A stretch of DNA of 47,677 nt from an uncultured Brachyspira sp. Its GTDB lineage: Bacteria > Spirochaetota > Brachyspiria > Brachyspirales > Brachyspiraceae. Both the position numbers and the translations under genes were made by a program. The notes under the pieces were generated by a model. It had not been told where the DNA came from. It made no database searches and worked only from the letters and a program-made list of their open reading frames with translations. Below are positions 3,801 through 46,591 of the stretch, piece by piece (position 1 is the stretch's first letter; each line of letters starts with the position of its first letter). The DNA lies in the NCBI GenBank assembly GCA_934725655.1, contig CAKVCJ010000002.1, positions 1 to 47,677 of the forward strand. The letters are read 5' to 3'.

Positions 3801-4322
3801 CTTTTGGTATTCTATCGACATAAACACTATTTACATTCCAATATGGTTAGATTTATTATGTTGACTCGTAGTAAGTCTTCTCCTTTCCAACTTCCATTTA
3901 CATTCCAATATGGTTAGATTTATTATCGAGAAAGTTAGACAAAGTATCAGGGCTATTCATACATTTACATTCCAATATGGTTAGATTTATTATAATCTTT
4001 TAATATAATCGGTTATTTGTTTTTCGTCTATTTACATTCCAATATGGTTAGATTTATTATGACGATTTAAATCTTGTTGATATGCGAATTGCTTCTATTT
4101 ACATTCCAATATGGTTAGATTTATTATAAATATATCGCCAGGAAGACACTCATGCCAACAAACATTTACATTCCAATATGGTTAGATTTATTATTTATAA
4201 AGTCTTCCCATTTACTCCATAATAATCTAGTATTTACATTCCAATATGGTTAGATTTATTATAATTACGCATTGATTTTTCACACTTATCACATCTCCAT
4301 TTACATTCCAATATGGTTAGAT
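880..4322 (-). CRISPR. Type I-B-like CRISPR array, leader-distal piece (51 spacers)
   Basis: A degenerate repeat at 880-910, then 50 nearly identical 31-bp repeats from 947 with spacers of 35-37 bp (period 67), then a truncated repeat at 4299-4322. On the plus strand the repeat begins ATTTACATTCCAATATGG and ends GATTTATTAT. The transcribed (minus) form ends in GGAATGTAAAT, as in clostridial type I-B repeats such as that of Clostridioides difficile. The decayed repeat marks the old, trailer end. The array has no leader of its own here: it stops at the prophage and continues 42 kb away at 46579. Open frames across the repeats are not genes. Confidence 0.97.
1648..1683 (-). other. CRISPR spacer matching the prophage (self-targeting)
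   Basis: Read in crRNA orientation this 36-nt spacer equals prophage positions 6490-6525 (plus strand) at 34 of 36 bases. The two mismatches are at crRNA positions 7 and 9. The bases just 5' of the protospacer are CCT, which fits the CCW PAM known for type I-B in C. difficile. The mismatches fall in one codon (TTG in the spacer, ATT in the prophage: Leu to Ile), so the spacer probably came from a close relative of this phage. Confidence 0.9.
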
Positions 4323-4335
4323 ATAAATTGCATAA
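4299..4335. other. attL: prophage junction inside a CRISPR repeat
   Basis: The first 24 bases of a CRISPR repeat (4299-4322, ending GGTTAGAT) run directly into phage DNA (ATAAATTGCATAA). The missing 3' part of the repeat reappears at 46579-46591. The bases shared by both junctions are TTAGAT (4317-4322), the likely crossover region. Integration therefore used the repeat as attB. Confidence 0.92.
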
Positions 4336-4407
4336 TCTAAAATTTAAACTGCATAATTCAAAATTTAAAACACATCAATTTAAAATCGCATAAATTTAAA
4401 TCGCAAG
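4325..4407. promoter_or_regulatory. Left integrase arm-site repeats
   Basis: Four related short elements lie next to attL: AAATTGCATAA (4325), TTTAAACTGCATAAT (4343), TTTAAAATCGCATAAA (4379) and TTTAAATCGCAAG (4395). Their complements resemble TTTATGCAAGTTAAA near attR (46503, 46543). Repeats on both sides of a core, in opposite orientation, are what arm-type sites of a lambda-like integrase look like. The rest of 4408-4480 holds a small palindrome (TGACAATGTCA, near 4427) and the next gene's ribosome binding site, but no strong promoter. Confidence 0.6.
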
Positions 4408-4480
4408 ATATTAAAAGCTGGCAAATGACAATGTCAAATGACAGAGTTATTAAAAATAAAAAAAATTAAGGAGAATTAAA

Positions 4481-4747
4481 ATGACAAAAGAATTACAAAA
4501 TCAAAAAGTTCTAACAAGAGACGATATAGGAATACATTTCTATTTCAACAACTATGAATATGCAAATGGACATATTTATATCGGCAATTCGATTTTTCAA
4601 AATATTTACAATTTAGAAATCGAAACACAAGAACAAGGCGAGGCTTATGAAGAACATTTAAAAGATACTTTTGAGGGTGAGACAGAAGAATATGCATGCG
4701 AACATTTAGACGAATGCATTGAAGAATTTCAATTTTTAGAATATTAA
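4481..4747 (+). CDS. Small, very acidic early protein
   Basis: 88 residues with AAGGAG upstream. The C-terminal half is strongly acidic (EHLKDTFEGETEEY, EHLDECIEEF), so the protein could mimic DNA or bind a basic partner. It is the first gene inside attL and heads the early operon. A winged-helix gene follows 48 bases downstream. Small acidic proteins beside a DNA-binding regulator in a prophage are a common setting for anti-CRISPR or other anti-defence genes, but no known family is recognised. Confidence 0.8.
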   Translation: MTKELQNQKVLTRDDIGIHFYFNNYEYANGHIYIGNSIFQNIYNLEIETQEQGEAYEEHLKDTFEGETEEYACEHLDECIEEFQFLEY

Positions 4748-4795
4748 AATTTATCTTATGAGTAATTGATATAAAAATAAAAAAGGAGGTTTGGA

Positions 4796-5089
4796 ATGGT
4801 TAGAGAAACGAGCATAAGAGCTTATAACAATGAAGTAAAGCATTTCAAAAATAAGTTATATACGATTATTTTGTCTACTCTTAATGAAATAGATAAAAAT
4901 AATGAAGGTGCTACGAGAGGCGAGATTGCTAATTATTCTAAACTTGAAAAATCGACAGTATCGGCAAGAGTAAACGAAATGTTGAAATTAGGAATGCTAC
5001 AAGAAGTCAGCAGACGGAAATGTAGATTTTCTAAAATATTAAGTTATACGATTGCTATAAATCCGAACAGACAAGGGAGGTTATTCTAA
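4796..5089 (+). CDS. Winged-helix DNA-binding protein
   Basis: 97 residues with an ideal AAAGGAGG binding site. Residues 20-85 read as a winged helix: a helix with TRGEIANYSKLEKSTVSARV followed by NEMLKLGMLQEVSRRKCRF, similar to MarR-like and phage regulatory folds. It probably regulates the early operon or acts with the acidic protein just upstream. A truncated copy of its N-terminus (MVRxTSxR) recurs at 7425. Confidence 0.7.
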   Translation: MVRETSIRAYNNEVKHFKNKLYTIILSTLNEIDKNNEGATRGEIANYSKLEKSTVSARVNEMLKLGMLQEVSRRKCRFSKILSYTIAINPNRQGRLF

Positions 5090-5090
5090 A

Positions 5091-5432
5091 ATGAATGAAA
5101 TAGATATATTGGAAAAAATGGCTTATGAACCGCCTCTTTATTTTCAAAATAAAGAGCCATTATCGGCATTACATTTTGATAAAATAAAAGCGGAGTTTAG
5201 AGTTAAAGGTTTACAAGATGATTTAAAAAATTACTTCTTTATTGAAAGTAAATATAACGAAGAAAGCGAGCGATATATTATTAGATTTAGTTATGGTGGT
5301 TTGGAATTTGAAATATGGACGACATATAAAGATACTATTTTTTATGTAAATATTAAAAATGTTAATCTTTATAAATATGAAAGCAAAGAACAACTAATAA
5401 ATCTTTTTATAAATATCGCATGTGTAATTTAA
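5091..5432 (+). CDS. Hypothetical early phage protein
   Basis: 113 residues, starting one base after the previous stop, so translation is probably coupled. It is mixed alpha/beta with many aromatic residues and has no signal or membrane segment. No family recognised. Confidence 0.65.
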   Translation: MNEIDILEKMAYEPPLYFQNKEPLSALHFDKIKAEFRVKGLQDDLKNYFFIESKYNEESERYIIRFSYGGLEFEIWTTYKDTIFYVNIKNVNLYKYESKEQLINLFINIACVI

Positions 5433-5451
5433 TTAAAAAATAGGTTAAAAA

Positions 5452-5781
5452 ATGATGCAAGTAAAAAACAATGAAAATTATTTTTTAAGAAAAATCGGCG
5501 GGCAAGACGGTTGGGATTTATGCTATAAAGATAATTTACAAAATAGCCCGTGCGTTCAAGTTATAGCAAAATTAAATAATCAATTTGAAGGCGAGACGGA
5601 CACGGCATTTGTAAAGTATGATACTAAAAAAGATATATTGCTATTTGAAGACAAAATACAATATGTATATGCTAATTACGATGTAGACGAATACGATACG
5701 ATGCCCGAAGAGGATTTTTCAAAACATATTGGGCGTTCTCTTTATGCGAGAGCGGGCGCTACATATATAGATAATTATTAA
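5452..5781 (+). CDS. Hypothetical early phage protein
   Basis: 109 residues (109 codons from ATG ATG CAA). It is acidic, with a C-terminal half rich in Asp, Glu and Tyr (YDVDEYDTMPEEDF). No family recognised. It lies in the tightly packed early operon. Confidence 0.65.
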   Translation: MMQVKNNENYFLRKIGGQDGWDLCYKDNLQNSPCVQVIAKLNNQFEGETDTAFVKYDTKKDILLFEDKIQYVYANYDVDEYDTMPEEDFSKHIGRSLYARAGATYIDNY

Positions 5782-5796
5782 GAGGAGGTTATAAAA

Positions 5797-5976
5797 ATGA
5801 AAAATATAAAAAAGTGCGCTATATGTAATGAAGCTATTAAAGATAATCTAATTAAAGTAGATTATTTGAAAATAGACGGCAGTATCGGAATTCAAATGAT
5901 GCACGATAGTTGCTATAAAAAAATTAAAAAATTAGAAAGAGAAGGAGAGAGTAAGGATGGAAGCAGAAGGCTTTAA
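5797..5976 (+). CDS. Small zinc-ribbon-like protein
   Basis: 59 residues with AGAGGAGG upstream. The pattern CAIC (residues 7-10) plus MHDSC (H36, C39) gives four metal ligands spaced as in small treble-clef or zinc-ribbon proteins. It overlaps the start of the next gene by 20 bases. It may bind nucleic acid; the specific role is unknown. Confidence 0.65.
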   Translation: MKNIKKCAICNEAIKDNLIKVDYLKIDGSIGIQMMHDSCYKKIKKLEREGESKDGSRRL

Positions 5977-6361
5977 AGAATTTATTGAAAAAATTAATAA
6001 TAGTAATAAAGACAACGAGGCTTTTAAAAATTTTTCTAAATTAGAAAATCAAATAAAAGATTATATTTTAGAGATTATTTTAAGAGATGATAATTATAAA
6101 TCTATAGACGAAATAGGTATCGAAATAACATGGAAATTGGGACACGAGGTTATACCTGATAACATAATTCCTATCGTATCTGATGTGATGTTTGTCGCTC
6201 ATGAACTTACTAAAATAAATATTTTAAATAAAAAGACAGAAATAAAAAAAAGAACATTTAATTATAATGTAGATGACACATATACAATAGATTATGTAAA
6301 GTTAAATAAAGATTATATAAATAAAATTATTAAGGAGAATAAAGATGAGCGAAGGTTATAA
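5957..6361 (+). CDS. Hypothetical early phage protein
   Basis: 134 residues, mostly helical and charged, starting inside the zinc-ribbon gene with GGAGAG upstream. No family recognised. It overlaps the broken gene downstream. Confidence 0.65.
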   Translation: MEAEGFKEFIEKINNSNKDNEAFKNFSKLENQIKDYILEIILRDDNYKSIDEIGIEITWKLGHEVIPDNIIPIVSDVMFVAHELTKINILNKKTEIKKRTFNYNVDDTYTIDYVKLNKDYINKIIKENKDERRL

Positions 6362-6552
6362 CGAAATCGGAGCATTGGAGTAGTTTTTCTAAAAAGGGAA
6401 ATCTATACGAAAGCGGACATATAAAATTGAACGGTAAAAAATACATAATAAGAGTTTATGACAATAAAAATAAAAAAAATAAACAACCTGAAAAAATTAT
6501 TTATTTATGGGGAGAGGAGGACATAAAAGATGAAAAACGAAATAACGACTAA
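6345..6552 (+). pseudogene. Frameshifted early gene carrying the self-target protospacer
   Basis: An ATG at 6345 with AAGGAG upstream encodes MSEGYNEIGALE and then a TAG at 6381. One frame over, from 6376, the text continues with WSSFSKKGNLYESGHIKL and runs to a TAA at 6550. Together they read as one small phage protein of about 70 residues interrupted by a +1 (or -2) shift, so it is a broken gene or, less likely, programmed frameshifting. The CRISPR protospacer (6490-6525) lies in its 3' part, coding EKIIYLWGEEDI. Confidence 0.6.
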
Positions 6553-7432
6553 TATACAAAAAACTAATTTCAATACGAACGATTTAATTGAAATTAGTAA
6601 AAGAGTAGCGGGAAGCGGGCTTTTAGGAAGTAGAGACGAAAATCAAATATTTACTTTAATGATGCTCGCATACAAAGACGGCATAAATCCAGTGCAGGCA
6701 AGTATGGATTATCATATTATACAAGGCAAACCCGCCTTATCCTCTCAAGCGACTTTAGTTAGATTTCAAAAAGCGGGCGGTAAAATAAAATATCTAAAAA
6801 GAACCGATAACGAATGCACGATTGAATTTTCGCATGAACAAGCGGGAGAGTTAACGATAACATGGAACATGGAACGGGCTAAACAGGCGGGACTTAATTT
6901 GAATAAACAAAATTGGAAACAATATCCACGCCAGATGCTCGCTGCACGCTGTATCGCTGAAGGTGTGCGGGCTTTATATCCAGCCTGCCTTGACGGACTT
7001 TATTTAGTCGAAGAAGTGCAAGATTTTGATAAACCTTTTAATAATCAAAAAAGTAATAATAAAGTTATCAATACTCAAGCGGAGAGTATAGACAATAGTA
7101 AATACGATATTGAAACGAATACTTATACTATTGATGATACAGAACAATATAACACAGTGCCGAGCGGAGCGAATAAAGGAAAATTATGGAAAGATTTAAA
7201 TATTAAAACATTAGACAAGGCTTTACAATATTATAAAGAGAAAAACGAAGACAACTATTCTAATGTAATAGAAAAAATCTTATTAGAAAAAATGAAAGAT
7301 AGAGAAACGGTTTCGGTTAGTGAAGACGAGGATGTATATAACGAAGAGGACGAATATATGTTCGGGGACGACGAAGACGAGATAAACGAAAACGATATTA
7401 TAGATTTTGGGGAGGATAAAAAAAATGGTTAG
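6530..7432 (+). CDS. RecT-like single-strand annealing protein
   Basis: 300 residues. The core (about residues 15-165) has the RecT-type order: an N-terminal screening segment (MMLAYKDGINPVQASMDYHI), a GKPALSSQATLVRFQKAGG stretch, then WNMERAKQAGL and RQMLAARCIAEGVRALYP ending in LVEEV. Phage RecT proteins anneal complementary strands during recombination and replication. The C-terminal third is acidic and low in complexity (EDEDVYNEEDEYMFGDDEDE). It starts inside the broken gene upstream. The VRR-NUC nuclease at 8907 could be a partner, but no classical RecE is seen. Confidence 0.75.
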   Translation: MKNEITTNIQKTNFNTNDLIEISKRVAGSGLLGSRDENQIFTLMMLAYKDGINPVQASMDYHIIQGKPALSSQATLVRFQKAGGKIKYLKRTDNECTIEFSHEQAGELTITWNMERAKQAGLNLNKQNWKQYPRQMLAARCIAEGVRALYPACLDGLYLVEEVQDFDKPFNNQKSNNKVINTQAESIDNSKYDIETNTYTIDDTEQYNTVPSGANKGKLWKDLNIKTLDKALQYYKEKNEDNYSNVIEKILLEKMKDRETVSVSEDEDVYNEEDEYMFGDDEDEINENDIIDFGEDKKNG

Positions 7433-7517
7433 ACAAACAAGTAAAAGAATAGTAGCTGGCGCTTTAGGTATAAGAATAAGAACATTATCGCGATTTGTAT
7501 TGTATTCGTTTCGATAA
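7425..7517 (+). CDS. Very short peptide, probably a gene remnant
   Basis: 30 codons (MVRQTSKRIVAGALGIRIRT and ten more) overlapping the RecT stop, with GGAGG upstream. Its start resembles the N-terminus of the winged-helix protein at 4796 (MVRETSIR), so it may be the stub of a duplicated copy. Confidence 0.35.
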   Translation: MVRQTSKRIVAGALGIRIRTLSRFVLYSFR

Positions 7518-7544
7518 TTTAAATTTTAAAAAAGGAGAACAACA

Positions 7545-7745
7545 ATGACTTATGAAGAAAATAGAATTAAATTAGAAAAAGAAGGCGCAGAATGGTTTGA
7601 TACTTTAAGAAAATTGAAAGCGCTTACAACTTCTATAATCAATAATGAAACTTTAGATATTTTAGAATATACAGATATGCGAGATAATGTAAGAGTTTTT
7701 CTATCGATTATAGAACATCACTTAAATGAATTGGAAAGAAATTAA
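7545..7745 (+). CDS. Small helical early protein
   Basis: 66 residues with AAGGAGAA upstream. It is mostly charged helices and probably a small coiled-coil or helical bundle. No family recognised. Confidence 0.65.
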   Translation: MTYEENRIKLEKEGAEWFDTLRKLKALTTSIINNETLDILEYTDMRDNVRVFLSIIEHHLNELERN

Positions 7746-7807
7746 TTACAATATCAAACAAAACGATATTGAAGTTTTATTTTATTAAAAAAAGAAGGAG
7801 TAGAAAA

Positions 7808-8032
7808 ATGAAAAAAAATAAAGATTTCAAAACTGAAAAAAATAATAAGATTGCATCATTAAAGAAAAAGCAAATTTTGGCAAAATGTTTAGCAATAACT
7901 TTATTATTAAGTAAAGAGCAATACGAAGCATTATCTCCAGACGCTTATAAAAAATTATTTGGGGATTGGACACAAAAAGAGCTAAAATGCTTATATCGTT
8001 TTTACGAAACGAACGAGCTAATTTTAGATTAA
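7808..8032 (+). CDS. Small basic early protein
   Basis: 74 residues from the ATG at 7808. I chose this start over 7769 because GAAGGAG lies at the right distance. The N-terminus is Lys-rich, followed by a helical region ending WTQKELKCLYRFYETNE. No family recognised. Confidence 0.6.
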   Translation: MKKNKDFKTEKNNKIASLKKKQILAKCLAITLLLSKEQYEALSPDAYKKLFGDWTQKELKCLYRFYETNELILD

Positions 8033-8048
8033 AAAAGAGAGGTTAATT

Positions 8049-8462
8049 ATGCTAAAAATATATTTGAGCGGAGCTATATCGAATAAAGACATAAAAGAAG
8101 CGAAAAAAGAATTTTCGGAAGCCGAAAAACGATTAAAAAAATCGATTAAATATTTATTTGATGAAAATCAAATAGAATTTATAAATCCTTTTAAGATTTT
8201 GAAAGTCAATAAAAAATATAGCTATAAAGATTATTTAAGAGAAGATATAAAAGTTTTATGCGATTGTAATATTTTAATCAATATTAGAAATGAAGGCTGG
8301 GAAAAATCGAAAGGAGCAAAACTTGAAAGAAAAATAGCAAGAGTTTTGTTTATAGATATATTTACTATAGAAGAATTTGAATCGTTTATATATCGATACG
8401 ATTTTAAAAGATATATGATAGATTTTTTTACTAATAAAAAGGTTGGAGGTAAAAAATGTTAG
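8049..8462 (+). CDS. DUF4406 / nucleoside deoxyribosyltransferase-like protein
   Basis: 137 residues. The N-terminus MLKIYLSGAIS, then an FSEAEKRL helix, INPF, a YKDYLREDIKVLCDCN block and WEKSKGAKLERKIA match the pattern of DUF4406 proteins. These share the fold of nucleoside 2-deoxyribosyltransferases and are common in phage early operons. A role in nucleotide metabolism is possible but the catalytic activity is not proven by the sequence. It overlaps the next gene by seven bases. Confidence 0.75.
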   Translation: MLKIYLSGAISNKDIKEAKKEFSEAEKRLKKSIKYLFDENQIEFINPFKILKVNKKYSYKDYLREDIKVLCDCNILINIRNEGWEKSKGAKLERKIARVLFIDIFTIEEFESFIYRYDFKRYMIDFFTNKKVGGKKC

Positions 8463-8710
8463 TAATATTAAGATTATCAAAAACTTTTGCATATAACATA
8501 CGCAGAGCATCTAGATTTGAGCTACACGGCAATATATTAAAAATTATAGACGAAGAAGGTATACAGATAGTTGATTATACATTGCCGTTATCCGAAGAGC
8601 ATTCCAAAATCTTTTTTGATATTTTTTTAGGTAATTTGAGTATAGGTAATTATGTCGATATAGATAGTCTTATTAAGAATAATTTTAAAGATGTGATGTT
8701 GAAGGAATAA
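8456..8710 (+). CDS. Hypothetical early phage protein
   Basis: 84 residues with GGAGG upstream inside the preceding gene. Mixed alpha/beta, no recognised family. Confidence 0.55.
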   Translation: MLVILRLSKTFAYNIRRASRFELHGNILKIIDEEGIQIVDYTLPLSEEHSKIFFDIFLGNLSIGNYVDIDSLIKNNFKDVMLKE

Positions 8711-8712
8711 TT

Positions 8713-8913
8713 ATGTATATATTAGAAAATCAAAATAAAAAAGAAATTAAAATGAAATACACGATTGATATTGAATTATATAATAAAAACATAGAACGAC
8801 ATGAATGCGATAATATGCAACATGTTTTATATAAGTTAAGAATAATCGAAGCGGAATATAAAGATACAATTAAAAAGATTATTCTAAAACCGAGCTGGAG
8901 TGAAAAATGTTAA
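8713..8913 (+). CDS. Hypothetical early phage protein
   Basis: 66 residues, two bases after the previous stop. It has a KYTIDIELYNKNIERHEC strand pattern followed by a helix. It overlaps the nuclease gene by seven bases. No family recognised. Confidence 0.55.
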   Translation: MYILENQNKKEIKMKYTIDIELYNKNIERHECDNMQHVLYKLRIIEAEYKDTIKKIILKPSWSEKC

Positions 8914-9392
8914 TAAGCGAAAGATTTAATATTTTTAGTATCGATAAAGTCGTTGACGAAATTAATAAACTTGAGACTGAAACATTAAAAAATAATGCGG
9001 TTGTGGAAAAAGAAGAGTATAAACGATACGATAAATATTTAGACGAAGATACTATTCAAACAATAGCTGTGGCTTATTTAAGAAAAAATAAAATTATAGT
9101 CGAAGGTTCAAAAAGCGGTATAAAAGTAAAATTTTTCAAAACATTAAAAAAAATGAAAGCGCATGGCATGGAGCGAGGATTTCCAGATTTGACGATAACA
9201 AAATGGAACGGTAAAAATACGACTTTTTATTTAGAATTGAAAACAGTAAAAGGTATTTTATCGAAAGAACAAAAAGCGATGTTAAAAGCGATAACGGACG
9301 AGCATGCTCCCGTTTCGGTTAGTTATGGACTTTACGATACGATTTACAAAATAAAAAAATATTTGGAAGGAGAGGCAATTTTATGGAAATAA
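8907..9392 (+). CDS. VRR-NUC domain nuclease
   Basis: 161 residues. The C-terminal domain (about residues 48-155) has the VRR-NUC signature of the PD-(D/E)XK superfamily: GFPDLTI, then FYLELKTVKGILSKEQK, where the Asp and the Glu-x-Lys are the catalytic metal-binding set. Phage VRR-NUC proteins act as structure-specific nucleases such as Holliday-junction resolvases. The N-terminal 45 residues are an extra helical part. It belongs with the RecT-like gene in a recombination module. Confidence 0.85.
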   Translation: MLISERFNIFSIDKVVDEINKLETETLKNNAVVEKEEYKRYDKYLDEDTIQTIAVAYLRKNKIIVEGSKSGIKVKFFKTLKKMKAHGMERGFPDLTITKWNGKNTTFYLELKTVKGILSKEQKAMLKAITDEHAPVSVSYGLYDTIYKIKKYLEGEAILWK

Positions 9393-9535
9393 ATACATAT
9401 ACGATTGAAAAAGAGGTTAAAAAAATGAACGAAAAAATAAAAAAAGAAAATGAATTTAAAAATAAAATATTAGACTTGTTAGAGAAGGCTCTAAATTCTC
9501 TAAAAGTGGAGGATACGGAAAATGGAAATAATTAA
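9383..9535 (+). CDS. Short coiled-coil peptide
   Basis: 50 residues with GGAGAG upstream, overlapping both neighbours. The sequence is almost all charged helix with heptad-like spacing of Ile and Leu. Function unknown. Confidence 0.55.
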   Translation: MEINTYTIEKEVKKMNEKIKKENEFKNKILDLLEKALNSLKVEDTENGNN

Positions 9536-9806
9536 AATAAAATCTTTTTTAATATCGGATGATAAAAAACTTATAATTGATACTTCATTAATTGAAACTA
9601 TAGAATATGTAAAATGCGATAATGGATTTTCAAATATCGTAATAAAAACAAAAGATAATGAAGAGGGGAAAATAATATATACGGCAGGAGCAAGCGAGGA
9701 GTTTTTTAGAAAAATGCAAATTAGAATATTTTATTATTTGAAAAAAAATAAAAATATAGATATGTCCGAATTGGCATATAAAATTTTAGGTAATTTAGAA
9801 AAATAG
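9522..9806 (+). CDS. Hypothetical early phage protein
   Basis: 94 residues with GGAGG upstream. The N-terminal part is beta-rich (IETIEYVKCDNGFSNIVIKT), the C-terminal part helical. The next gene has a similar layout, so the two may be distant relatives. Confidence 0.6.
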   Translation: MEIIKIKSFLISDDKKLIIDTSLIETIEYVKCDNGFSNIVIKTKDNEEGKIIYTAGASEEFFRKMQIRIFYYLKKNKNIDMSELAYKILGNLEK

Positions 9807-9819
9807 GGAGGTTTAAAAA

Positions 9820-10131
9820 ATGCAAGGTTTTATAAAAACAGAAAAAAACTATTATAAACATACTAAATTAATCAATATTAAATATATACACAATATTGGA
9901 ATTAACTTGATGGAAGAGATAGAAACGACTATGGAAGGCGGAGGCAGTTATATTTTATTTAAACCGCAAAATGATTTTGAAAGAAGCCAAGAATTTTTAA
10001 ATAGAATGATAGATAGAATATTTTTAGTATTATCCGATTGCGAATATGATAATGTTTTTATAGATATTGAAGTTATTAAAAATGATATAACAAAAGAATT
10101 AAAAGCGGAGCGGATAGCTCAAGGAGAATGA
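9820..10131 (+). CDS. Hypothetical early phage protein
   Basis: 103 residues with GGGAGG upstream. It has an N-terminal strand set (KLINIKYIHNIGINLMEE, then a GGGSYILF strand) and a C-terminal helix, like the preceding protein. No family recognised. Confidence 0.6.
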   Translation: MQGFIKTEKNYYKHTKLINIKYIHNIGINLMEEIETTMEGGGSYILFKPQNDFERSQEFLNRMIDRIFLVLSDCEYDNVFIDIEVIKNDITKELKAERIAQGE

Positions 10132-10133
10132 AA

Positions 10134-10919
10134 ATGACAATAAATAAATATCTACAAGATAAAGTCGATATAAATGAAATAACCGAAAGCGATAGAGATT
10201 TTATATTAAGACAAATAGACCAAATAGAAAATAAAGAAACTCCTTTATTTTCTGAAAAAGAAAAATATTGTATTTATCGTATATTATCTATTTATTATAT
10301 AGATTATCTTAATAATAATAAAAAAATCGTTTGGAGAACAGTTGCTAATATATATAACGATATAGGCGGTTTTGATAACAACGACGCGATAAAAGATGTG
10401 AATAAAGTATTAGATATATTAGTTAGTAAAAATATTTTGAAAGTCAAAAAAAGAAATGAAAAAAATACACGATTTCATTTTGTAAATTATAATTTTAGTG
10501 ATGCAGTTATCAATTCATTAAAAGCAATAGTTTCAAACGACAACGAAAATATAAAAGATAGTAATTGCGAATATGAATGTAATAATAAGAGTTCTGAAGA
10601 GGATATAACAAAGAAGGCAATAATAAGAGCGGAAAATATTTTTATGATTTATAACAACTATCACGGCGAAGCGATTAATCAAATTGAAGAAAGTTTAAAA
10701 TCCATATTTGGTTTTGAAATAAAAAATTATGATAATCTTTTAAAGTTTGAAATAGGCTGCGCTAAAGCGGGCAGTGTGCCATGCGGTTATAATCTTTATT
10801 TGAGTAGAGGTTATATCGTATTTGAAACAGAAGACAATTCGACTATTGATAATGTATATACATTAGATAATGTTGCAGAATTAATAGATTTGATTAAAGA
10901 GTTAAGGGAGGACGAATAA
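10134..10919 (+). CDS. Hypothetical protein with a possible winged helix
   Basis: 261 residues from the ATG at 10134. I prefer this to the ATG at 10128, which sits one base from the GGAG. Residues about 45-115 look like a helical, winged-helix-type domain (VWRTVANIYNDIGGFDNNDA, then KVLDILVSKNILKVKKR). A Glu/Asn-rich linker and a C-terminal alpha/beta domain follow. It may have a replication or regulatory role. Not recognised. Confidence 0.6.
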   Translation: MTINKYLQDKVDINEITESDRDFILRQIDQIENKETPLFSEKEKYCIYRILSIYYIDYLNNNKKIVWRTVANIYNDIGGFDNNDAIKDVNKVLDILVSKNILKVKKRNEKNTRFHFVNYNFSDAVINSLKAIVSNDNENIKDSNCEYECNNKSSEEDITKKAIIRAENIFMIYNNYHGEAINQIEESLKSIFGFEIKNYDNLLKFEIGCAKAGSVPCGYNLYLSRGYIVFETEDNSTIDNVYTLDNVAELIDLIKELREDE

Positions 10920-10921
10920 AA

Positions 10922-11014
10922 ATGAAAGAGAGAATATTAGAAATAATTAATCGTAAAGATTTGAAAGATAAAGAGAAAATAGCTTTAATAAAATATTTTA
11001 TAGAGACTATGTAA
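10922..11014 (+). CDS. Very short helical peptide
   Basis: 30 codons, two bases after the previous stop, with AGGGAGG upstream. A single charged helix. It may be a genuine micro-protein or only a coupling ORF. Confidence 0.4.
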   Translation: MKERILEIINRKDLKDKEKIALIKYFIETM

Positions 11015-39886: not shown

Positions 39887-39897
39887 CTCTCTCTCCT

Positions 39898-39931
39898 CAC
39901 TATAGAATAATCGACACGACTTACTTATAAT
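39898..39931 (+). promoter_or_regulatory. Late promoter C
   Basis: CACTATAG (39898-39905), exactly 20 bases, TATAAT (39926-39931). The first seven bases after CACTATAG (AATAATC) partly match late promoter A (AATAATA). Only six bases separate TATAAT from the ATG at 39938, so the tail message is probably leaderless. Confidence 0.78.
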
Positions 39932-39937
39932 TTAATT

Positions 39938-40789
39938 ATGAGTAAGAGAATATGGTCTAACCTTGAATTTATACTAACCGACACGAATACGGGTGAAACT
40001 TTACACTTGGGCGAAGGCTCAAAAACATACCCGTCTATTTCAAGCGATGAGGCTTTATTTAATGCTTTACAATCATTTACTGTAGAAGAAGACGAAGGAC
40101 GGACTATTCCTATTAAATTATTATTAAGGAATATGAATGAAACCGCTTTTTTGAATGCTTTTCTTAATCCGAAGCGAAAATATAATTTGAAAGTTATTAG
40201 AGACGGCTTGAATTATTATACTCAATGCACGGCATTAGAACCCGAGCCTGCGGGAATTGACGATTTATACGGAGACAGTCAAAAAGGTATAACCTATACC
40301 GTCAACCTTCAATTATTGGCAAGTCGGAATTATTTTGAAAGCGACCCTATCAGTAATAATAGTGTTGGCAGTCAATTATCGGAAAACTTTATGTTTGGAG
40401 TATCTTATCCGCTTGATATGAAGCAATATATTTTTTCGGTAAAATTACCTATACAGCCTGTGGTTGTTAACAATCAAGGTGGCGATAATATCGGCTTTAC
40501 TCTAACGATAACGCCTCAAGCTCCTTTAATCAATCCGATTTTACGCAATGAGACAACAGGGCTTGAAATGAAAATATTTATACGAGCTGAAGTTGGCGAC
40601 ACTTTAATTATAGATACGAGAGACAAGACAGTATCGCTTAACGGTGTTTATTATGAGAATGTAAAGAGAATACAAGATAATTGGCTCAAGTTAGAATTAG
40701 GGAATAATACATTAAAGTTTGATGCCGATACGGGCGGTGGCTCTGCTGATGCTTATATTGTATTTAGAAATAAATATCGAGGCTTTTAA
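39938..40789 (+). CDS. Distal tail protein (Dit-like)
   Basis: 283 residues. N-terminal half (FNALQSFTVEEDEGRTIPIK, LNPKRKYNLKVIRDGLNYYT) and beta-rich C-terminal half fit distal tail/baseplate hub proteins, as does the position before the Gp37-like protein. No ribosome binding site; it appears to be translated from a leaderless message starting at late promoter C. Confidence 0.65.
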   Translation: MSKRIWSNLEFILTDTNTGETLHLGEGSKTYPSISSDEALFNALQSFTVEEDEGRTIPIKLLLRNMNETAFLNAFLNPKRKYNLKVIRDGLNYYTQCTALEPEPAGIDDLYGDSQKGITYTVNLQLLASRNYFESDPISNNSVGSQLSENFMFGVSYPLDMKQYIFSVKLPIQPVVVNNQGGDNIGFTLTITPQAPLINPILRNETTGLEMKIFIRAEVGDTLIIDTRDKTVSLNGVYYENVKRIQDNWLKLELGNNTLKFDADTGGGSADAYIVFRNKYRGF

Positions 40790-41961
40790 TGAAAAATCCG
40801 CAAAACATAGACGAATTATATATATTTGATTATGATTTTAATTTTTTATGTAATATAAAAGAGTTTAAAAAACTTGAATGGACGGAGAAGATATTTGAAG
40901 CCGACAGCTTTACTTTGGAATTAGAGTTTAAAAAAGAAAGGAATACGAGGACGGCAGAGTATAACTATTATAAGACTTTATACGATGCGATAGTAGGCTC
41001 AAATAGATATTATGATAACGAACAAAAAAAATATAAGAGCGGTTTTTATTATCCACGATTTATTATAACGAACGCCGATAGCGGACTAACGCCTATAGCA
41101 TATATACAAAGTTATAAGTTTACAGACGAGGGAACGCTTGAAATAAAAGGCGAGGGTTTTTTACAATTTTTAGAAAAAAGATATACGATTAAAAAAGAAT
41201 ATATACCTACCGATGAAAATAATGATAAATGCGGACGAGTAATGTGTAGAATAATCAACGATAATAATAACAATAGCCAAACCAATTTTATGCCTTTCTT
41301 TATTGCAGAAGAATATGATAACGATAACGGAGAGGAGATATATGTTAGTTGTGAAAGGAAAGATACTTTATATAAAAAATTAAAAACTCTTTCGGAAGCA
41401 TACGAAGTAGGAATGCAAACGCTTTACCATCCCGAAGAGAAAAAGATATATTTCAAAACTATAAAATATCCAAAAAAAGATTTGCAAGATTTAAGAGTAT
41501 TAAGCGAAGACGATGACAATGTAGTATCTATCGCTATGGAAGTAGACATTGATAAATATCGTAATTATGTATTAGTCGAAGGCGAGGAAAATGTAATAAT
41601 AGATATTAGACAAGATAAAGAAAAAGAGCCTGCCCTTGAATTAGTAATACAATCGAATAAAAAGCGAGGCAGTAAAACATTAGAACAATATAAAAAAATA
41701 CTTGAAGCCGAAGGCAGAGAAAAACTTTCAAAATATCTTATGGAAGAGGCTTTCGATATTGAACCTACTCAAGATGTAAAAGTAGATTTGGGCGAATATG
41801 TTTTATGTAAATTAGATTTAGGATATGAAACTATTTATAAACAATTATTAGTAAGCGAGATAACGCATACTATAGAAAATGGCAAATATACACGAGAGGT
41901 TGCTTTTGGTAAACCTTTCGGATTAATAAATGAATTACAAAACAAGATTTTGGAGGAATAA
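40789..41961 (+). CDS. Siphovirus Gp37-like tail protein
   Basis: 390 residues. ELYIFDYDFNFLCNIKEFKK followed by EWTEKIFEADSFTLEL is the N-terminal pattern of the ReqiPepy6 Gp37-like/tail-endopeptidase family. It probably forms the tail tip. It starts one base inside the preceding stop. Confidence 0.75.
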   Translation: MKNPQNIDELYIFDYDFNFLCNIKEFKKLEWTEKIFEADSFTLELEFKKERNTRTAEYNYYKTLYDAIVGSNRYYDNEQKKYKSGFYYPRFIITNADSGLTPIAYIQSYKFTDEGTLEIKGEGFLQFLEKRYTIKKEYIPTDENNDKCGRVMCRIINDNNNNSQTNFMPFFIAEEYDNDNGEEIYVSCERKDTLYKKLKTLSEAYEVGMQTLYHPEEKKIYFKTIKYPKKDLQDLRVLSEDDDNVVSIAMEVDIDKYRNYVLVEGEENVIIDIRQDKEKEPALELVIQSNKKRGSKTLEQYKKILEAEGREKLSKYLMEEAFDIEPTQDVKVDLGEYVLCKLDLGYETIYKQLLVSEITHTIENGKYTREVAFGKPFGLINELQNKILEE

Positions 41962-41963
41962 AA

Positions 41964-43046
41964 ATGCAAAGAAATGGAATAACGCAAGATATAACGGTTT
42001 TACCTGTGAACTCTCAACCTATAATGGTAGTGCAAATTGGAAGCGGTGAGAATATAGAATTGATACGATGGGGTATAGATACTATTATAGAGTATTATGT
42101 CGAAACTACAGGATTATGGAACGAGGCTAAAGTATTATCGCCTTCTTCTGTAAAAGACGAGAAAACGCAAGAAGTTATTAACCTTCAAGCGAACACGCCT
42201 GTTAGATTAAAAGAAAATCCGACAACGAGCGGTTTATTAGTATTATCGACTAAAATGTATGATATAGAATATAACGCCGAAGATTTACAAACGACTTATC
42301 AATTCTTATATGGTAGCGGAATAGTAAAAGATAAATTATACGGAAATATAATTGCATCTGGCGGTAGACAAATAACTGTAAGTTCGTCTCAATTTGTTAT
42401 AGACGGTTTCGTAGGATTTTTTAAGTCTCCGCAAAGTGTTATTGTAGATATTGGGGACGGTTCGGTTAGAAAAGATTTACTTATATTAAGAAAAGTGCAA
42501 GCTGAAGGCGATGTATATTTATGTATAAAAAGAGGCATCCCTTCCCCTAATCCCGAGCCTCCGAAATTAACTCAAAATACGAATGGAATATATGAAATAG
42601 CTTTAGCGGAAATATCGGTGCAGGCAAATAGTCAAACAATAAGTCAAGGCGATATTAAAGATGTCCGTCCGACAGGCTTTTTATCTATTATCGATATGAT
42701 TTATCCTGTAGGTTCAATTTATACAAGTTTAGATAAAGATTTTGACCCGAATAACACTTGGCAAGGCACGACTTGGGAGAAAATTAAAAGCGGTATATTT
42801 TTAGAGGCTACTACAGATATTAATCAAGTCGGAAAAGAAATTCAACCAGGACTACCTCAACCAAAAGGAGCATATAAGGATGCTAGGTATCGAGGAGGAA
42901 GTGTAGTTGACCCTGGTTATACTACAGGGGTATATTCTCAGGACATGCTTACAGATATTATATTTAGAGATACAGATATATACGGTAAATCTAACACCGT
43001 GCAGCCTCATTCTATAAGATGTTTTATTTGGCAGAGGATAAGGTAA
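41964..43046 (+). CDS. Baseplate / receptor-binding tail protein
   Basis: 360 residues with GGAGG upstream. N-terminal baseplate-binding part (residues 1-60), a middle beta region, and a C-terminal YPVGSIYTSLDKDFDPNNTW (about residues 251-270) with GTTWEKI, a motif common near the ends of tail fibres and collar-like receptor-binding proteins. It probably decides host attachment. Confidence 0.75.
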   Translation: MQRNGITQDITVLPVNSQPIMVVQIGSGENIELIRWGIDTIIEYYVETTGLWNEAKVLSPSSVKDEKTQEVINLQANTPVRLKENPTTSGLLVLSTKMYDIEYNAEDLQTTYQFLYGSGIVKDKLYGNIIASGGRQITVSSSQFVIDGFVGFFKSPQSVIVDIGDGSVRKDLLILRKVQAEGDVYLCIKRGIPSPNPEPPKLTQNTNGIYEIALAEISVQANSQTISQGDIKDVRPTGFLSIIDMIYPVGSIYTSLDKDFDPNNTWQGTTWEKIKSGIFLEATTDINQVGKEIQPGLPQPKGAYKDARYRGGSVVDPGYTTGVYSQDMLTDIIFRDTDIYGKSNTVQPHSIRCFIWQRIR

Positions 43047-43339
43047 TGAAAGATAAAGACTTTACTTTAAGCGATGTTAATATTATTTTAAATATGCCAG
43101 AAAAAGAATATATCGATACTCTTTTATCTTTAGTCAATCTAACAGATAAGGAAAGAGAAACTATCGATATGTATTATTTCAAGGGATTAAGAGATATTGA
43201 CATTGCAGAAAAACACGGTATAGACCCTCGTCAAGTATCGGCAATCAAAAAGAAAGCAAAATTAAAAATGTATCAAGTGTGGAAATATAACGCTATGGCT
43301 ATTGCTTTTTCAAATTTATATACTCAAAATAATTCTTAA
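43046..43339 (+). CDS. Sigma region 4-like regulator
   Basis: 97 residues. Start ATG at 43046 overlaps the previous stop. LTDKERETIDMYYFKGLRDI then DIAEKHGIDPRQVSAIKKKA (residues 31-70) is a sigma-70 region 4-type helix-turn-helix: a helix with the L-T-x-x-E-R-E start, turn and recognition helix. Such proteins often turn on phage late genes, so it is a candidate reader of the CACTATAG element. Confidence 0.7.
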   Translation: MKDKDFTLSDVNIILNMPEKEYIDTLLSLVNLTDKERETIDMYYFKGLRDIDIAEKHGIDPRQVSAIKKKAKLKMYQVWKYNAMAIAFSNLYTQNNS

Positions 43340-43369
43340 AAACTTCTTTAATTTTTCGTTTATTTATCA

Positions 43370-43397
43370 TTTACAAAAACACGGCAAATATTATTAT
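43370..43397 (+). promoter_or_regulatory. Promoter close to the next start codon
   Basis: TTTACA (43370-43375), 16 bases, TATTAT (43392-43397), nine bases before the ATG at 43407; no ribosome binding site, so a near-leaderless message. Confidence 0.4.
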
Positions 43398-43406
43398 TTT
43401 GTTATT

Positions 43407-43661
43407 ATGATAGAGAATAACACTAATAACATAACTAAAATAATACAGGCTATACCGAACATATTAAAACAAGCTCAAAATAAATATGTTGACGACAATT
43501 CGATTATTCAAATTGCTAAAAGTCAAGGAGTAGACTTGAATAAAGTTTTAAGTGTTATTAGTCAATACGAAAATAATATAATTGTAGTTAGTATCGCTCA
43601 AAAGTTTGGAGTAGATATAGTGGCGGTAAAAAATAAAATACAAAGTTTAGTAAATAGGTAA
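43407..43661 (+). CDS. Small helical protein with two HTH-like repeats
   Basis: 84 residues from the ATG at 43407. Two similar segments recur: DDNSIIQIAKSQGVDLNKVL and IIVVSIAQKFGVDIVAVKNK, each resembling a short HTH. May bind DNA. Not recognised. Confidence 0.5.
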   Translation: MIENNTNNITKIIQAIPNILKQAQNKYVDDNSIIQIAKSQGVDLNKVLSVISQYENNIIVVSIAQKFGVDIVAVKNKIQSLVNR

Positions 43662-43727
43662 AAATATCCGCAATGGTTTACACCATAAAGGATTTTTTAT
43701 ATATATCAATATTATAAGGAGTATATT

Positions 43728-44201
43728 ATGAATGAAGGTTCAAACGCTATGACAGGCGGAAGTATCGGAGTATGGGCTATAGCTGTAATTATATTATTAG
43801 CTATGTTCGGCGGAGGCGGTTTTTTCGGAGGCTTTAATCGTTTTCCAATGGGAGCTGGCGGTGATTGTGTGACGCCTAAAAATAATTTAGAGTTCGGGTT
43901 TTATAGTATGAATAATACTAACTCTAAAATAGACGCTTTGGCAACGCAAAACGCTCAAGAGTTTTTTAACTTACGACAAACGATAGACGGCAACGAATTA
44001 ACAAGAGTTAGAGACGAACTTGCAAAAACGCAGATGGCTTTGGCTTTGGAAAAACAAGGCAGATACATGGACGAACAATTCTGTAGAATAAACGCACGAC
44101 TTGACGGAATACCAAAAAGTCCGACTTTTTATCCTGCAGGAAATATCAACGCTTCATGTGTTTATAAATGCCCGACTGAAACGACAACAACGACAGCGTA
44201 A
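43728..44201 (+). CDS. Gly-rich membrane-associated phage protein
   Basis: 157 residues with AAGGAG upstream. A membrane segment (about residues 13-27) runs into GGGGFFGGFNRFPMGAGG, followed by a coiled coil and a Cys-containing end (INASCVYKCPTET). Such proteins are found near the ends of phage tail operons; the role is unknown. Confidence 0.6.
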   Translation: MNEGSNAMTGGSIGVWAIAVIILLAMFGGGGFFGGFNRFPMGAGGDCVTPKNNLEFGFYSMNNTNSKIDALATQNAQEFFNLRQTIDGNELTRVRDELAKTQMALALEKQGRYMDEQFCRINARLDGIPKSPTFYPAGNINASCVYKCPTETTTTTA

Positions 44202-44208
44202 AACGAAC

Positions 44209-44254
44209 AGGGCTTTTTATTGTATATAGCAATGAGAAGCCCTATATTTTTTTG
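44209..44254 (+). terminator. Intrinsic terminator
   Basis: AGGGCTT (44209-44215) and ATTG pair with CAAT and AAGCCCT (to 44243), followed by ATATTTTTTT. Confidence 0.8.
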
Positions 44255-44273
44255 AATTATAAGGACGGTTATT

Positions 44274-44396
44274 ATGAATAATGTTTTATTTTTAGTATTA
44301 GGTATCGCAGGCACTCTTTATGTTAAAGATAAAGATTTTAGGAATGAATGCAATAAAACGATAAAAGAAATTATAGAAAATATGAGGAATAATTAA
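44274..44396 (+). CDS. Small membrane-anchored peptide
   Basis: 40 residues with AAGGACGG upstream: a hydrophobic start (VLFLVLGIAGTLYV) and a charged helix. Two bases separate it from the next gene. Function unknown. Confidence 0.5.
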   Translation: MNNVLFLVLGIAGTLYVKDKDFRNECNKTIKEIIENMRNN

Positions 44397-44397
44397 A

Positions 44398-44895
44398 ATG
44401 ACACATGAAGAAAGAGATATATTGAAATTAAGCGAAGAGCAGGCAAATCTTCTTGACGGCAATGTTATGGATGCCTTTTATACGAAAGTGCAAAAAATGA
44501 TAAAGGCAGGTGCGGGTGCATTTAACGAAGACGACATTATAGTTTATATGCTCGCTAAAAAATATATTTTACATGAGAATAAGAATATTGATAAAAATAC
44601 AATGTCGGAAGAAATACAGGACTTATCGGAAGATGTAAAGAAGAGTTTTAACGAAGTCTATAAAGAGTATAAAGATATAAAGCATAAATATAGCAAAATG
44701 ACTAATTCTATAGATAAAGCGGATGTTGTAGAAGCTCATAAAAGAATGTCGGATGGTTTACATAACATTTTGGATTATATAGAGGATTTATTCAGAGACT
44801 TATATAGCTGTAGCGAATGCGAAGAAGAGAGAAACGAGTTGAGAAAATCAATAAAAAATCTTGCATTAGAATATAAGATAATAAATAAAGAATAA
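44398..44895 (+). CDS. Helical hypothetical protein, last rightward gene
   Basis: 165 residues, nearly all helices with coiled-coil pattern and a CSECEEERNEL motif near the end. It closes the rightward genes before the convergent integrase. No family recognised. Confidence 0.6.
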   Translation: MTHEERDILKLSEEQANLLDGNVMDAFYTKVQKMIKAGAGAFNEDDIIVYMLAKKYILHENKNIDKNTMSEEIQDLSEDVKKSFNEVYKEYKDIKHKYSKMTNSIDKADVVEAHKRMSDGLHNILDYIEDLFRDLYSCSECEEERNELRKSIKNLALEYKIINKE

Positions 44896-44903
44896 ATAAA
44901 CTA

Positions 44904-44966
44904 TTGACTGTAAACCTTTTATAAGTTATAATATAGTCGATTAAAAGGTTTACAGTTAGTAAAAGT
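44904..44966. terminator. Inverted repeat between convergent genes, with embedded promoter
   Basis: A perfect 15-bp inverted repeat (44907-44921 and 44942-44956) is followed on the plus strand by GTTTTTTTT (44965 on), so it should terminate rightward transcripts and perhaps leftward ones from int. Inside it lies a clean rightward promoter: TTGACT (44904-44909), 17 bases, TATAAT (44927-44932). Confidence 0.65.
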
Positions 44967-45020
44967 TTTTTTTAATTCTCATAGCCTCTTGGGTTGTTGC
45001 CAGCATCCGCAGAGGCTTTT
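44939..45020 (+). ncRNA. Possible small RNA antisense to the 3' end of int
   Basis: Starting from the promoter at 44904-44932, transcription would run about 80 bases to a second hairpin AGCCTCT (44983-44989) / AGAGGCT (45011-45017) followed by TTTTTT. The product overlaps the last codons of the integrase on the other strand. The first hairpin and its T-run at 44957-44972 could also end it earlier. Confidence 0.35.
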
Positions 45021-46144
45021 TTTATTATATCGATTATTTTATGCATATTATTCTTTATATATTCAGACAATACTTCGTCCGATATTTCATTTGAAATAGG
45101 CTTTTTTTCTTCAATTAATTTTTGTTTTCTAATTGAAAAAGACGGATGCCGTTTTACCGCTCGTATCATTTCTTTATTTTGTAAGTCTAAATAATGTTTA
45201 TTAGTAGTATCAACGCTTTTATGTCCGATTATTCTACTTACCATCGTCAAATCTATTCCGCTATCGTATAAGTCTGAAACATAACCTGCTCGGAGTTGAT
45301 GTAAATGAAACTTTATGCCGTATTTTTTTTGAAATCTTTCGGGAATTCTATCCATAATACTTTCGCTTGCATTTTCGCCGTTCGCATTAATAAAAAAACT
45401 GTCCGCACTTCTATTTGCATATTTTTCGCGTTCGTCAAGGTAAAGTTTAATATATTTCATAGCGATAGGCGGAATTAATACAATTCGGTATTCTTCCGTT
45501 TTTGATTGAAATAGTTTTATTTTATGCTCTTCAATATTAATTATAGAATAAGCATCATTAGTATTTTTTAATTTCAGGTTTGTCAATTCATTTTTTCTTG
45601 CTCCCGTTATTGAGTAGAGAAGAAAAGCTATTAAATCTCTTCGTTCAATAAACTTTTTTGTCTTATGATAATTTTCTTTGAATAAAGTAATAACATCTCT
45701 AAAGAGAAAAGCATCGGGGGTTTTATGCATTCTTTTCGGAAGTTTAATATTGAATATACTTAAATCTAATTTTTTTGTAGTAGTATCGTTTAAGAAATTA
45801 TAATATTTTCTTAATGCCGATGCGCATGAATTAAGCGCGCTACTCCCTCTTTTATATTTTTTAAGCAATTCCCCAAACGCTCTTTTAACATCTGCTTTCG
45901 ATATATCTTTTATTTGTTTTGATTTTATAAAATCAATTCCAAAAAAATTTTTGAGCCAAAATACATCCATTTTTAACGAACGCATTTTATTAGATATAGC
46001 ATAATAATTAATATATTCTTTTTCTTTTAACATAAACAAGTCTCCGCTTTTAAAATCTTCTGGCAAATGAAAATCAAACAACAGAGAATTATTTATATTA
46101 TCATTATCGGAAAGTAAATAATTAAAGTTTAATACAGAAATCAT
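44972..46144 (-). CDS. int: Tyrosine-family integrase
   Basis: 390 residues with AGAGAGGA upstream. An N-terminal part for arm or core binding, then the catalytic domain: Arg183 (TGARKNEL), His282-x-x-Arg285 (HQLRAGY), His308 (IGHKSVDTT) and Tyr318 (NKHYLDL). All catalytic residues are present. It adjoins attR and must have inserted the phage at TTAGAT inside the CRISPR repeat. It is read in the same direction as the CRISPR transcript. Confidence 0.93.
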   Translation of the reverse strand: MISVLNFNYLLSDNDNINNSLLFDFHLPEDFKSGDLFMLKEKEYINYYAISNKMRSLKMDVFWLKNFFGIDFIKSKQIKDISKADVKRAFGELLKKYKRGSSALNSCASALRKYYNFLNDTTTKKLDLSIFNIKLPKRMHKTPDAFLFRDVITLFKENYHKTKKFIERRDLIAFLLYSITGARKNELTNLKLKNTNDAYSIINIEEHKIKLFQSKTEEYRIVLIPPIAMKYIKLYLDEREKYANRSADSFFINANGENASESIMDRIPERFQKKYGIKFHLHQLRAGYVSDLYDSGIDLTMVSRIIGHKSVDTTNKHYLDLQNKEMIRAVKRHPSFSIRKQKLIEEKKPISNEISDEVLSEYIKNNMHKIIDIIKKASADAGNNPRGYEN

Positions 46145-46181
46145 AAAATAGTCCTCTCTTTTTAATATTATATTTAATTAT

Positions 46182-46210
46182 AGTATATATATTATTATTA
46201 AAAAATTCAA
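46182..46210 (-). promoter_or_regulatory. Promoter of the integrase gene
   Basis: On the minus strand TTGAAT (46210-46205), 17 bases and TATACT (46187-46182), 38 bases before the start codon. Confidence 0.55.
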
Positions 46211-46277
46211 GTTTTTTATTTAAAATATCTGTTTCAAGCTATTTTAATATTTTTATGTAGTTATGTTTACTTATTAT

Positions 46278-46371
46278 GAAATAATCAAAAAATAGATTAT
46301 ATAGTATGCTATATATATTTTTTCAAGCTAAAATATGTATTAAATGTAGTATAAACAGAGTATTTGCTACA
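46278..46371. promoter_or_regulatory. Regulatory module B, copy of 15161-15246
   Basis: It contains a 24-bp block (46331-46354) identical to 15213-15236, a TATGCTATATATA palindrome half matching module A, and a TGTAG/CTACA pair. The block ends 57 bp before the -35 box at 46411, the same distance as in module A, so the two promoters are probably bound by the same regulator. Confidence 0.7.
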
Positions 46372-46410
46372 AAAAAAGCTAATTTTTTTTATTTTTTTAA
46401 AAAAAAGCAC

Positions 46411-46491
46411 TTGACAAAATATATTTTATGATTTATAATATAATTATAAGTTAATTGAGAGATTGACTTTAAGAGAGTTCTTTAATAGATA
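46411..46491 (+). promoter_or_regulatory. Two tandem rightward promoters facing attR
   Basis: First: TTGACA (46411-46416), 17 bases, TATAAT (46434-46439). Second: TTGACT (46463-46468), 17 bases, TAGATA (46486-46491). No gene lies between them and attR. In the lysogen they fire into the CRISPR array; in circular phage DNA they would lie about 300 bases upstream of the early gene at 4481. Confidence 0.75.
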
Positions 46492-46502
46492 CGAGATTTA
46501 AA

Positions 46503-46557
46503 TTTATGCAAGTTAAACTGAAACATGCAATTTATATTAAGTTTTATGCAAGTTAAA
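46503..46557. promoter_or_regulatory. Right integrase arm-site repeats
   Basis: Two identical copies of TTTATGCAAGTTAAA (46503-46517 and 46543-46557) and a related CATGCAATTTA (46524-46534). They mirror the left-end repeats at 4325-4407. Confidence 0.6.
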
Positions 46558-46570
46558 TGCACTATCTATA

Positions 46571-46591
46571 CATTATAATTAGATTTATTAT
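46571..46591. other. attR: prophage junction inside a CRISPR repeat
   Basis: Phage sequence (CATTATAA) passes into TTAGATTTATTAT (46579-46591), the last 13 bases of the CRISPR repeat, followed by a normal 36-bp spacer. The shared crossover bases are 46579-46584. Confidence 0.92.

Follow-up and report, generated by a model that had tools for sequence, protein, structure and literature searches.

Temperate phages of the lambda type usually integrate at a tRNA or single-gene site, and the phages that act as regulatory switches through active lysogeny are found in comK or hlb. The locus described here lies in a stretch of 47,677 nucleotides from an uncultured Brachyspira (the window). It resembles the lambda-type siphophages in having an integrase beside attR, a short common core, arm-type repeats on two sides and a packaging-head-tail gene order; it differs in that the probable attB is a CRISPR repeat, present in 60-odd copies in one locus. 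As with the comK and hlb phages, precise excision would rebuild the interrupted element, but the element here is adaptive immune memory and its excision is predicted from the sequence join. According to the accessible portions of the respective reports, CRISPR arrays inside prophages occur in C. difficile (PMC8473940), Halanaeroarchaeum prophage 1 carries a I-B system (PMC4866403), and a prophage located in a tRNA gene of Oenococcus sicerae is matched by type I spacers (PMC9867325). The prophage-borne arrays share with this locus the physical linkage of phage and CRISPR, whereas the array here is outside the att cores, flanking a phage that contains no repeat. Oenococcus sicerae is similar in that its genome carries spacers matching its own resident prophage, but the site there is a tRNA gene and here a CRISPR array. 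Within the genus, the Brachyspira hyodysenteriae prophage pphBhCH20, as outlined in the available part of its report (PMC8845278), has a methylase, a PBSX-type terminase, capsid genes, tail genes and a terminal integrase, all features of the present prophage; the likeness is one of description, and the available part names no attachment site. No precedent for a CRISPR repeat as attB of a prophage was found among the titles and opening parts of abstracts listed from the open-licence PMC literature (two of the lists covered 40 of 67 and 20 of 25 papers), a search that could miss a report elsewhere.

The 31-base repeat (ATTTACATTCCAATATGGTTAGATTTATTAT) is present in the window in 62 identical copies, 50 left and 12 right of the prophage, in keeping with the sequence-only reading, which had counted more than 60. 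One further repeat is cut in two, with overlap TTAGAT: the attL side (4299..4322, reverse strand) holds its initial 24 bases (repeat positions 1-24) and ends in the TTAGAT core, and the attR side (46579..46591, reverse strand) starts with the core and holds the final 13 bases (positions 19-31). Spacers of 35-37 bases run on at both sides, 63 in all. The leader-distal part of the array (911..4298, reverse strand) comprises 50 full repeats and 51 spacers and is closed on the left, at its trailer end, by a degenerate terminal repeat with 5 mismatches (880..910, reverse strand); the leader-proximal part (46592..47397, reverse strand) comprises 12 spacers and 12 full repeats, and the full repeats of both parts are exact copies. 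Once 42,262 bases are removed the repeat is again perfect, wherever within the core the join is made. The split repeat first noticed from the sequence alone, with a prophage between its halves and spacers on both sides, is thus confirmed by an exact repeat map and a perfect restored join. TTAGAT alone is frequent, with 27 more copies within the prophage. The left flank (1-946) matched other genomes in short conserved pieces only, and the array could not be placed in another genome from it; a degenerate repeat-like sequence near 779 kb in a related genome (G004) was inspected and dropped.

The DNA between the repeat halves (4323..46578, forward strand) is a siphovirus-type, temperate-phage-like prophage of 42 kb. 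Profile matches identify terminase, portal, head and tail genes in packaging-head-tail order: terminase large subunit (20941..22236; PHROG 2, 8.5e-33), portal protein (22236..23909), major head protein (28878..29864; PHROG 247, 1.3e-46) and tape measure protein (33446..37489; PHROG 991, 4.3e-69), all on the forward strand. The same strand encodes a RecT-like annealing protein (6530..7432; PHROG 561, 4.4e-14) and a replication initiation protein (11876..12856) with internal 22-base tandem repeats at 12213-12300; a helix-turn-helix protein on the reverse strand (14281..14769; PF12728, PHROG 66) is a candidate regulator or excisionase. No lysis gene was recognised among the 40 proteins scanned with PHROGs and the 11 scanned with Pfam, from 84 ORFs in total. 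The window and 20 integrase loci contain no tRNA, and Rfam gave no match in the window at gathering thresholds.

A tyrosine integrase of 390 amino acids is encoded beside attR (44972..46144, reverse strand; PF00589, 8.3e-21; PHROG 1, 3.7e-26). Its residues R183, H282, R285, H308 and Y318, which we take to be catalytic, are invariant across 19 aligned sequences. Near the same end, the motif TTATGCAAGTTAAA occurs in two exact copies 40 bases apart (46504..46557, forward strand). The left end (4322..4393, reverse strand) carries inverted near-copies, TATAAATTGCATAA at 4322, TTTAAACTGCATAA at 4343 and TTAAAATCGCATAA at 4380, with 2, 2 and 3 mismatches, respectively, to the right-end motif. With up to two mismatches allowed, TTATGCAAGTTAAA is found at six places in the window, four of which lie, mirrored, inside the 343 bases of the two prophage ends. 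These repeats on the two phage arms are likely to be the arm sites of the integrase. The integrase domain, the virion genes and this motif scan bear out the earlier description of a prophage with an edge integrase and mirrored arm-site repeats.

Recombination would join the phage half-sites CATTATAA and CAATTTAT, which surround TTAGAT, to the repeat half-sites CAATATGG and ATAATAA. Of 640 other placements, 5 reach the half-site similarity seen at the observed core, for a frame picked after viewing the sequence; this control omits the observed placement itself, whose last half-site extends one base into a spacer. Core, half-sites, arm-type repeats and adjacent integrase together make up a site-specific recombination anatomy at the CRISPR repeat. 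It is probable that the 42-kb temperate-phage-like genome was placed in one repeat by its own tyrosine integrase, with the CRISPR repeat as attB and the exchange occurring at the TTAGAT core. The proposal that a CRISPR repeat served as attachment site is supported for this prophage (by the perfect restored repeat, core, half-sites, arms and integrase); the accompanying suggestion of a preference at the level of a phage family goes beyond one insertion.

The right end of the window (47398..47677, reverse strand) contains the leader and the 3′ end of cas2, the sole cas sequence present. This region is conserved in two other genomes, at 94.6% in B. catarrhinii (L046) and 87.6% in G004 (L059), and includes a promoter-like TTGACA-17-TAAAAT at 47590-47562. 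In B. catarrhinii the same leader adjoins type I-B cas genes (an operon of cas8b, cas7, cas5, cas3 and cas6), so transcription of the array should run right to left; the array-bearing strain is presumably also of type I-B. If, as predicted, the leader at the right end drives transcription of the array, 12 spacers would stay under its promoter after the insertion and 51 would be severed, including one against the same phage. Excision would bring back the complete array, with a perfect repeat at the join. The phage may derive some benefit from the insertion. A promoter-like sequence directed outward from the prophage into the distal array (4408..4437, reverse strand; 10/12 match) might keep that half transcribed, counter to silencing; such promoter-like sites in the region number 6, compared with 4.1 ± 1.9 in shuffles, which is not above chance.

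The spacer against the phage is a new observation, missed by the sequence-only reading. Located on the leader-distal side as the 52nd spacer from the leader (1648..1683, reverse strand), it matches 34/36 bases at 6490..6525 (forward strand), a protospacer with 5′ flank CCT directly upstream of the recT-like gene; the phage sits between the leader and this spacer. It is the only one of the 63 to match the prophage. The next best spacer has 9 mismatches, and the lowest count among 186 comparisons with control sequences (first-order Markov sequences, not exact shuffles) was 10. The two mismatches fall at positions 7 and 9 counted from the PAM side and could by themselves weaken targeting. In another Brachyspira array (G004), two of nine spacers match the prophage perfectly, one of them within the portal gene (22858-22893, 5′ CCG); none of the nine in G001 does. 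When matches with at most two mismatches are counted, CCN lies 5′ of all three protospacers (CCT, CCG, CCT); in the accessible text of PMC8406132, no motif class measured for C. difficile I-B was more effective than CCN. A further G004 spacer match, with 9 mismatches and 5′ flank ATT, was left out of the targets.

Chance does not reasonably explain the split repeat: the cut points are complementary within one 31-base unit, one of them has an integrase next to it, and arm-type repeats are found at both. An assembly join, in which phage and array halves would come from different molecules, had been raised as a possible refutation, and the window, apparently a whole contig, does terminate inside cas2. 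This objection is very improbable: no more than 6 bases are common to the junctions, the halves fit together exactly as one repeat and make a single complete array (one leader at one end, one degenerate terminal repeat at the other), and the integrase and arm-type repeats are located at the junctions. Homologous recombination through a phage-borne repeat was rejected, with just 6 bases in common, as was a CRISPR array carried by the phage, since no repeat with up to 9 mismatches exists within the prophage, hybrid ends aside.

More serious, though still unlikely in our judgement, is a loose specificity for short AT-rich sites, under which the insertion into a CRISPR repeat was accidental and was perhaps kept because a large array can be hit without harm. 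A single insertion was seen, its shared core is as short as 6 bases, and the two integrase relatives of about 50% identity, from MAGs, adjoin different genes in their two genomes. Those relatives have other repeats, common to both, upstream, and on that account say little about the present integrase. An 86% identical integrase (P0035) and a 100% identical terminase (P0056) each have a longest contig of 34,361 bases, an agreement that would fit an exchange of integration modules. A survey of isolates from human spirochetosis, in the portion of its text available, reports neither a CRISPR-Cas system nor a prophage in the genomes it adds (PMC6779451); a 92% identical integrase carries the name B. 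aalborgi, and should the bacteria that carry it have no array, that phage must be integrated at some other site. Against loose specificity, the attP and repeat half-sites are more alike than at nearly all other placements, and the array without the prophage, at 4,262 bases, is roughly 0.2% of a genome of 2.5-2.7 Mb. Somewhat less likely again is a selective reason for the arrangement, only those lysogens having survived in which the spacer at 1648-1683 was silenced. The match, its CCT flank and its leader-distal position fit this idea, but the insertion has 51 of the 63 spacers behind it, which gives a matching spacer a probability of about 81% of being there by chance, and the mismatches at positions 7 and 9 may on their own be enough for escape.

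In both related genomes carrying this repeat, exact copies of the 15-base sequence GGTTAGATTTATTAT are confined to CRISPR repeats (10/10 places in G004 and 11/11 in G001), and one mismatch adds 4 and 1 places, respectively, outside them; this fits a CRISPR-restricted site, short of proof. The search for related integrases in CRISPR repeats that had been suggested found the accessible ones outside arrays, but these are distant (78-79% and about 50%). The closer, in B. catarrhinii, is an N-terminally shortened copy; neither it nor the two MAG relatives has an array nearby, and none was found in 5 loci scanned. Among 30 further integrase loci (L016-L045; flanks of about 1.5 kb, less at contig ends), 26 show no array-like signal. 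The signal at L026, L042, L044 and L045 consists of 44-45 base repeats, dismissed as simple tandem repeats at three of the four (L026 left out). The scan did not take in L071-L078, and with most matches distant it is weak evidence for or against a site preference.

A wider reading, which we offer tentatively, is that a widespread Brachyspira phage lineage uses the host CRISPR repeat as attB, that integration cuts off leader-distal memory including anti-phage spacers, and that excision restores it exactly. Integrase gene and array share one orientation, so the CRISPR leader may even drive expression of the integrase in the lysogen. If this is true, CRISPR repeats would add a new class to the attachment sites of phages, one that is multi-copy, restricted to array-bearing hosts and coupled to immunity; a phage could switch off stored immunity by insertion rather than by anti-CRISPR proteins, and the position of an integrated phage in the array may decide which spacers still work.

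The search brought up 46 other integrase proteins, and in a comparison of the proteins 26 of them reach an identity of at least 94%. A genome contig search with the single protein gave no match, and with the alignment 5, of which 3 are Brachyspira; in IMG/VR neither query found a relative. Exact searches of IMG/VR for the full repeat, for the attP junction, for a truncated repeat and for the doubled arm motif were likewise empty. The terminase had no match in 26 Brachyspira species genomes (a search run without a positive control). Annotated phage records yielded two weak integrase matches, no megablast match to window positions 20000-37500, and 414 terminase matches, all below 60% identity, the maximum among the best 20 of the 414 being 41.8%. 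Two RecT relatives (47% and 49%) were found in IMG/VR, as was one 5.9-kb contig with a 97% identical terminase.

A prophage does interrupt the CRISPR array at one of its repeats. The array comprises 62 identical copies of a 31-base repeat in the window, with spacers of 35–37 bases, and one further repeat that is cut in two, as the sequence-only reading had proposed: a first part of 24 bases ends at 4322 and a last part of 13 begins at 46579, and the two share TTAGAT. Joining the flanks in silico at any point within TTAGAT restores a perfect repeat. A degenerate repeat (880–910) closes the array on the left, and a leader with the 3′ end of cas2 (47398–47677; 94.6% identity to locus L046 of B. 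catarrhinii and 87.6% to locus L059 of a second Brachyspira genome, G004) stands on the right, so the halves are best read as a single array with one leader end and one trailer end. Every repeat in the window carries a promoter-like TTTACA-18-TATTAT on the plus strand (e.g., 46629–46658), facing the leader.

The insert is 42,262 bases long, with a GC content of 29% (26% in the flanks); genes were assigned from 40 scanned proteins among 84 ORFs. These include RecT, replication initiation, and DNA methyltransferase genes; a packaging and head set (terminase, portal, minor head proteins, scaffold, major head protein, and head-tail adaptor); and tail genes (tape measure, Dit, and minor tail protein). 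A minus-strand tyrosine integrase of 390 aa lies at the edge (44972–46144; Phage_integrase domain); no lysis gene was recognised among the 40 proteins scanned. A minus-strand helix-turn-helix gene is a candidate regulator, and a PAPS-reductase-like gene (19124–19819) is phage-borne. Four tandem copies of a 22-base repeat in the replication initiation gene (12213–12300) are possibly the phage origin.

Mirrored arm-type repeats were confirmed: TTATGCAAGTTAAA occurs in two exact copies at the right phage end and as inverted near-copies at the left, and of its six occurrences within two mismatches in the whole window, four lie inside 343 bases of the two phage ends. Around TTAGAT, attP has the half-sites CATTATAA and CAATTTAT, and the CRISPR repeat has CAATATGG and NATAATAA; the pairwise identities of these half-sites sum to 27, a value that 5 of 640 other placements equal or exceed (top score 28). 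The exact 15-mer GGTTAGATTTATTAT falls only in CRISPR repeats in G004 (10 of 10 places) and B. catarrhinii (11 of 11, including one in a degenerate repeat that lies on another contig); allowing one mismatch adds four places and one place, respectively.

Site-specific integration into the CRISPR repeat is the best reading of the insertion, and the phage may prefer this site. The integrase relatives with available DNA (the B. catarrhinii copy and two MAG copies) adjoin no CRISPR array. The B. catarrhinii relative (78–79% identity) is shortened and lies between two genes that, by their translations, are MMPL-like and formate-tetrahydrofolate-ligase-like; the MAG relatives (~50% identity) have other neighbouring genes and other repeats upstream. 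Literature searches of open PMC papers listed no phage whose attB is a CRISPR repeat. A survey of human isolates records no CRISPR-Cas system and no prophage among its new genomes (PMC6779451), so carriers that lack arrays may exist. Tandem arrays of 44–45-base units lie at most ~1.5 kb from other Brachyspira integrases (loci L042, 292–465; L044, 253–430; L045, 811–1081).

In B. catarrhinii, cas6, cas8b, cas7, cas5, cas3, cas1, and cas2 (type I-B; the scan passed over a 169-aa ORF between cas3 and cas1) precede the leader shared with the window; in G004, where few of the further ORFs were scanned, a shortened cas1 and a cas2 adjoin the array. A promoter-like TTGACA-17-TAAAAT is kept in all three, and the array should be transcribed leftwards, starting at the right-end leader. 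No terminator-like site was found in 46100–47677. The integrase gene (start 46144) thus lies downstream and shares the leader's orientation, and read-through into it is possible. The insertion would silence leader-distal spacers and may benefit the phage.

This CRISPR system very probably does target the phage family. One of the 63 window spacers (1648–1683, number 52 counted from the leader) agrees with prophage positions 6490–6525 in 34 of 36 bases, with mismatches at positions 7 and 9 counted from the PAM side and a CCT flank; the next-best spacer has nine mismatches, and Markov controls never had fewer than 10 (186 comparisons). Two of nine G004 spacers (the second and third at L059) match perfectly, at 22858–22893 and 33083–33118, with flanks CCG and CCT; none of nine B. 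catarrhinii spacers matches. The CCN flanks agree with type I-B data from C. difficile, where plasmids with CCN yielded no transconjugants and the effect of TCN was weaker (PMC8406132). The prophage stands between the leader and spacer 1648–1683; since 51 of 63 spacers are leader-distal to it, this position alone is no evidence of selection. Spacers 3793–3828 and 46928–46963, one on each side of the prophage, agree at 30 of 36 positions without a shift in register, as though both had been acquired from a single locus in related phages.

In sequence archives this phage is common: the 120 terminase matches listed include 52 proteins (P0049–P0100, the window's own counted) with at least 94% identity over 99–100% of their length. 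Terminase P0051 carries the name Brachyspira aalborgi; the longest contig listed for it and the one listed for the 92% identical B. aalborgi integrase (P0026) both measure 260,674 bases. The longest contigs of an 86% identical integrase (P0035) and a 100% identical terminase (P0056) are also equal in length (34,361), which suggests that integration modules are exchanged within this phage.
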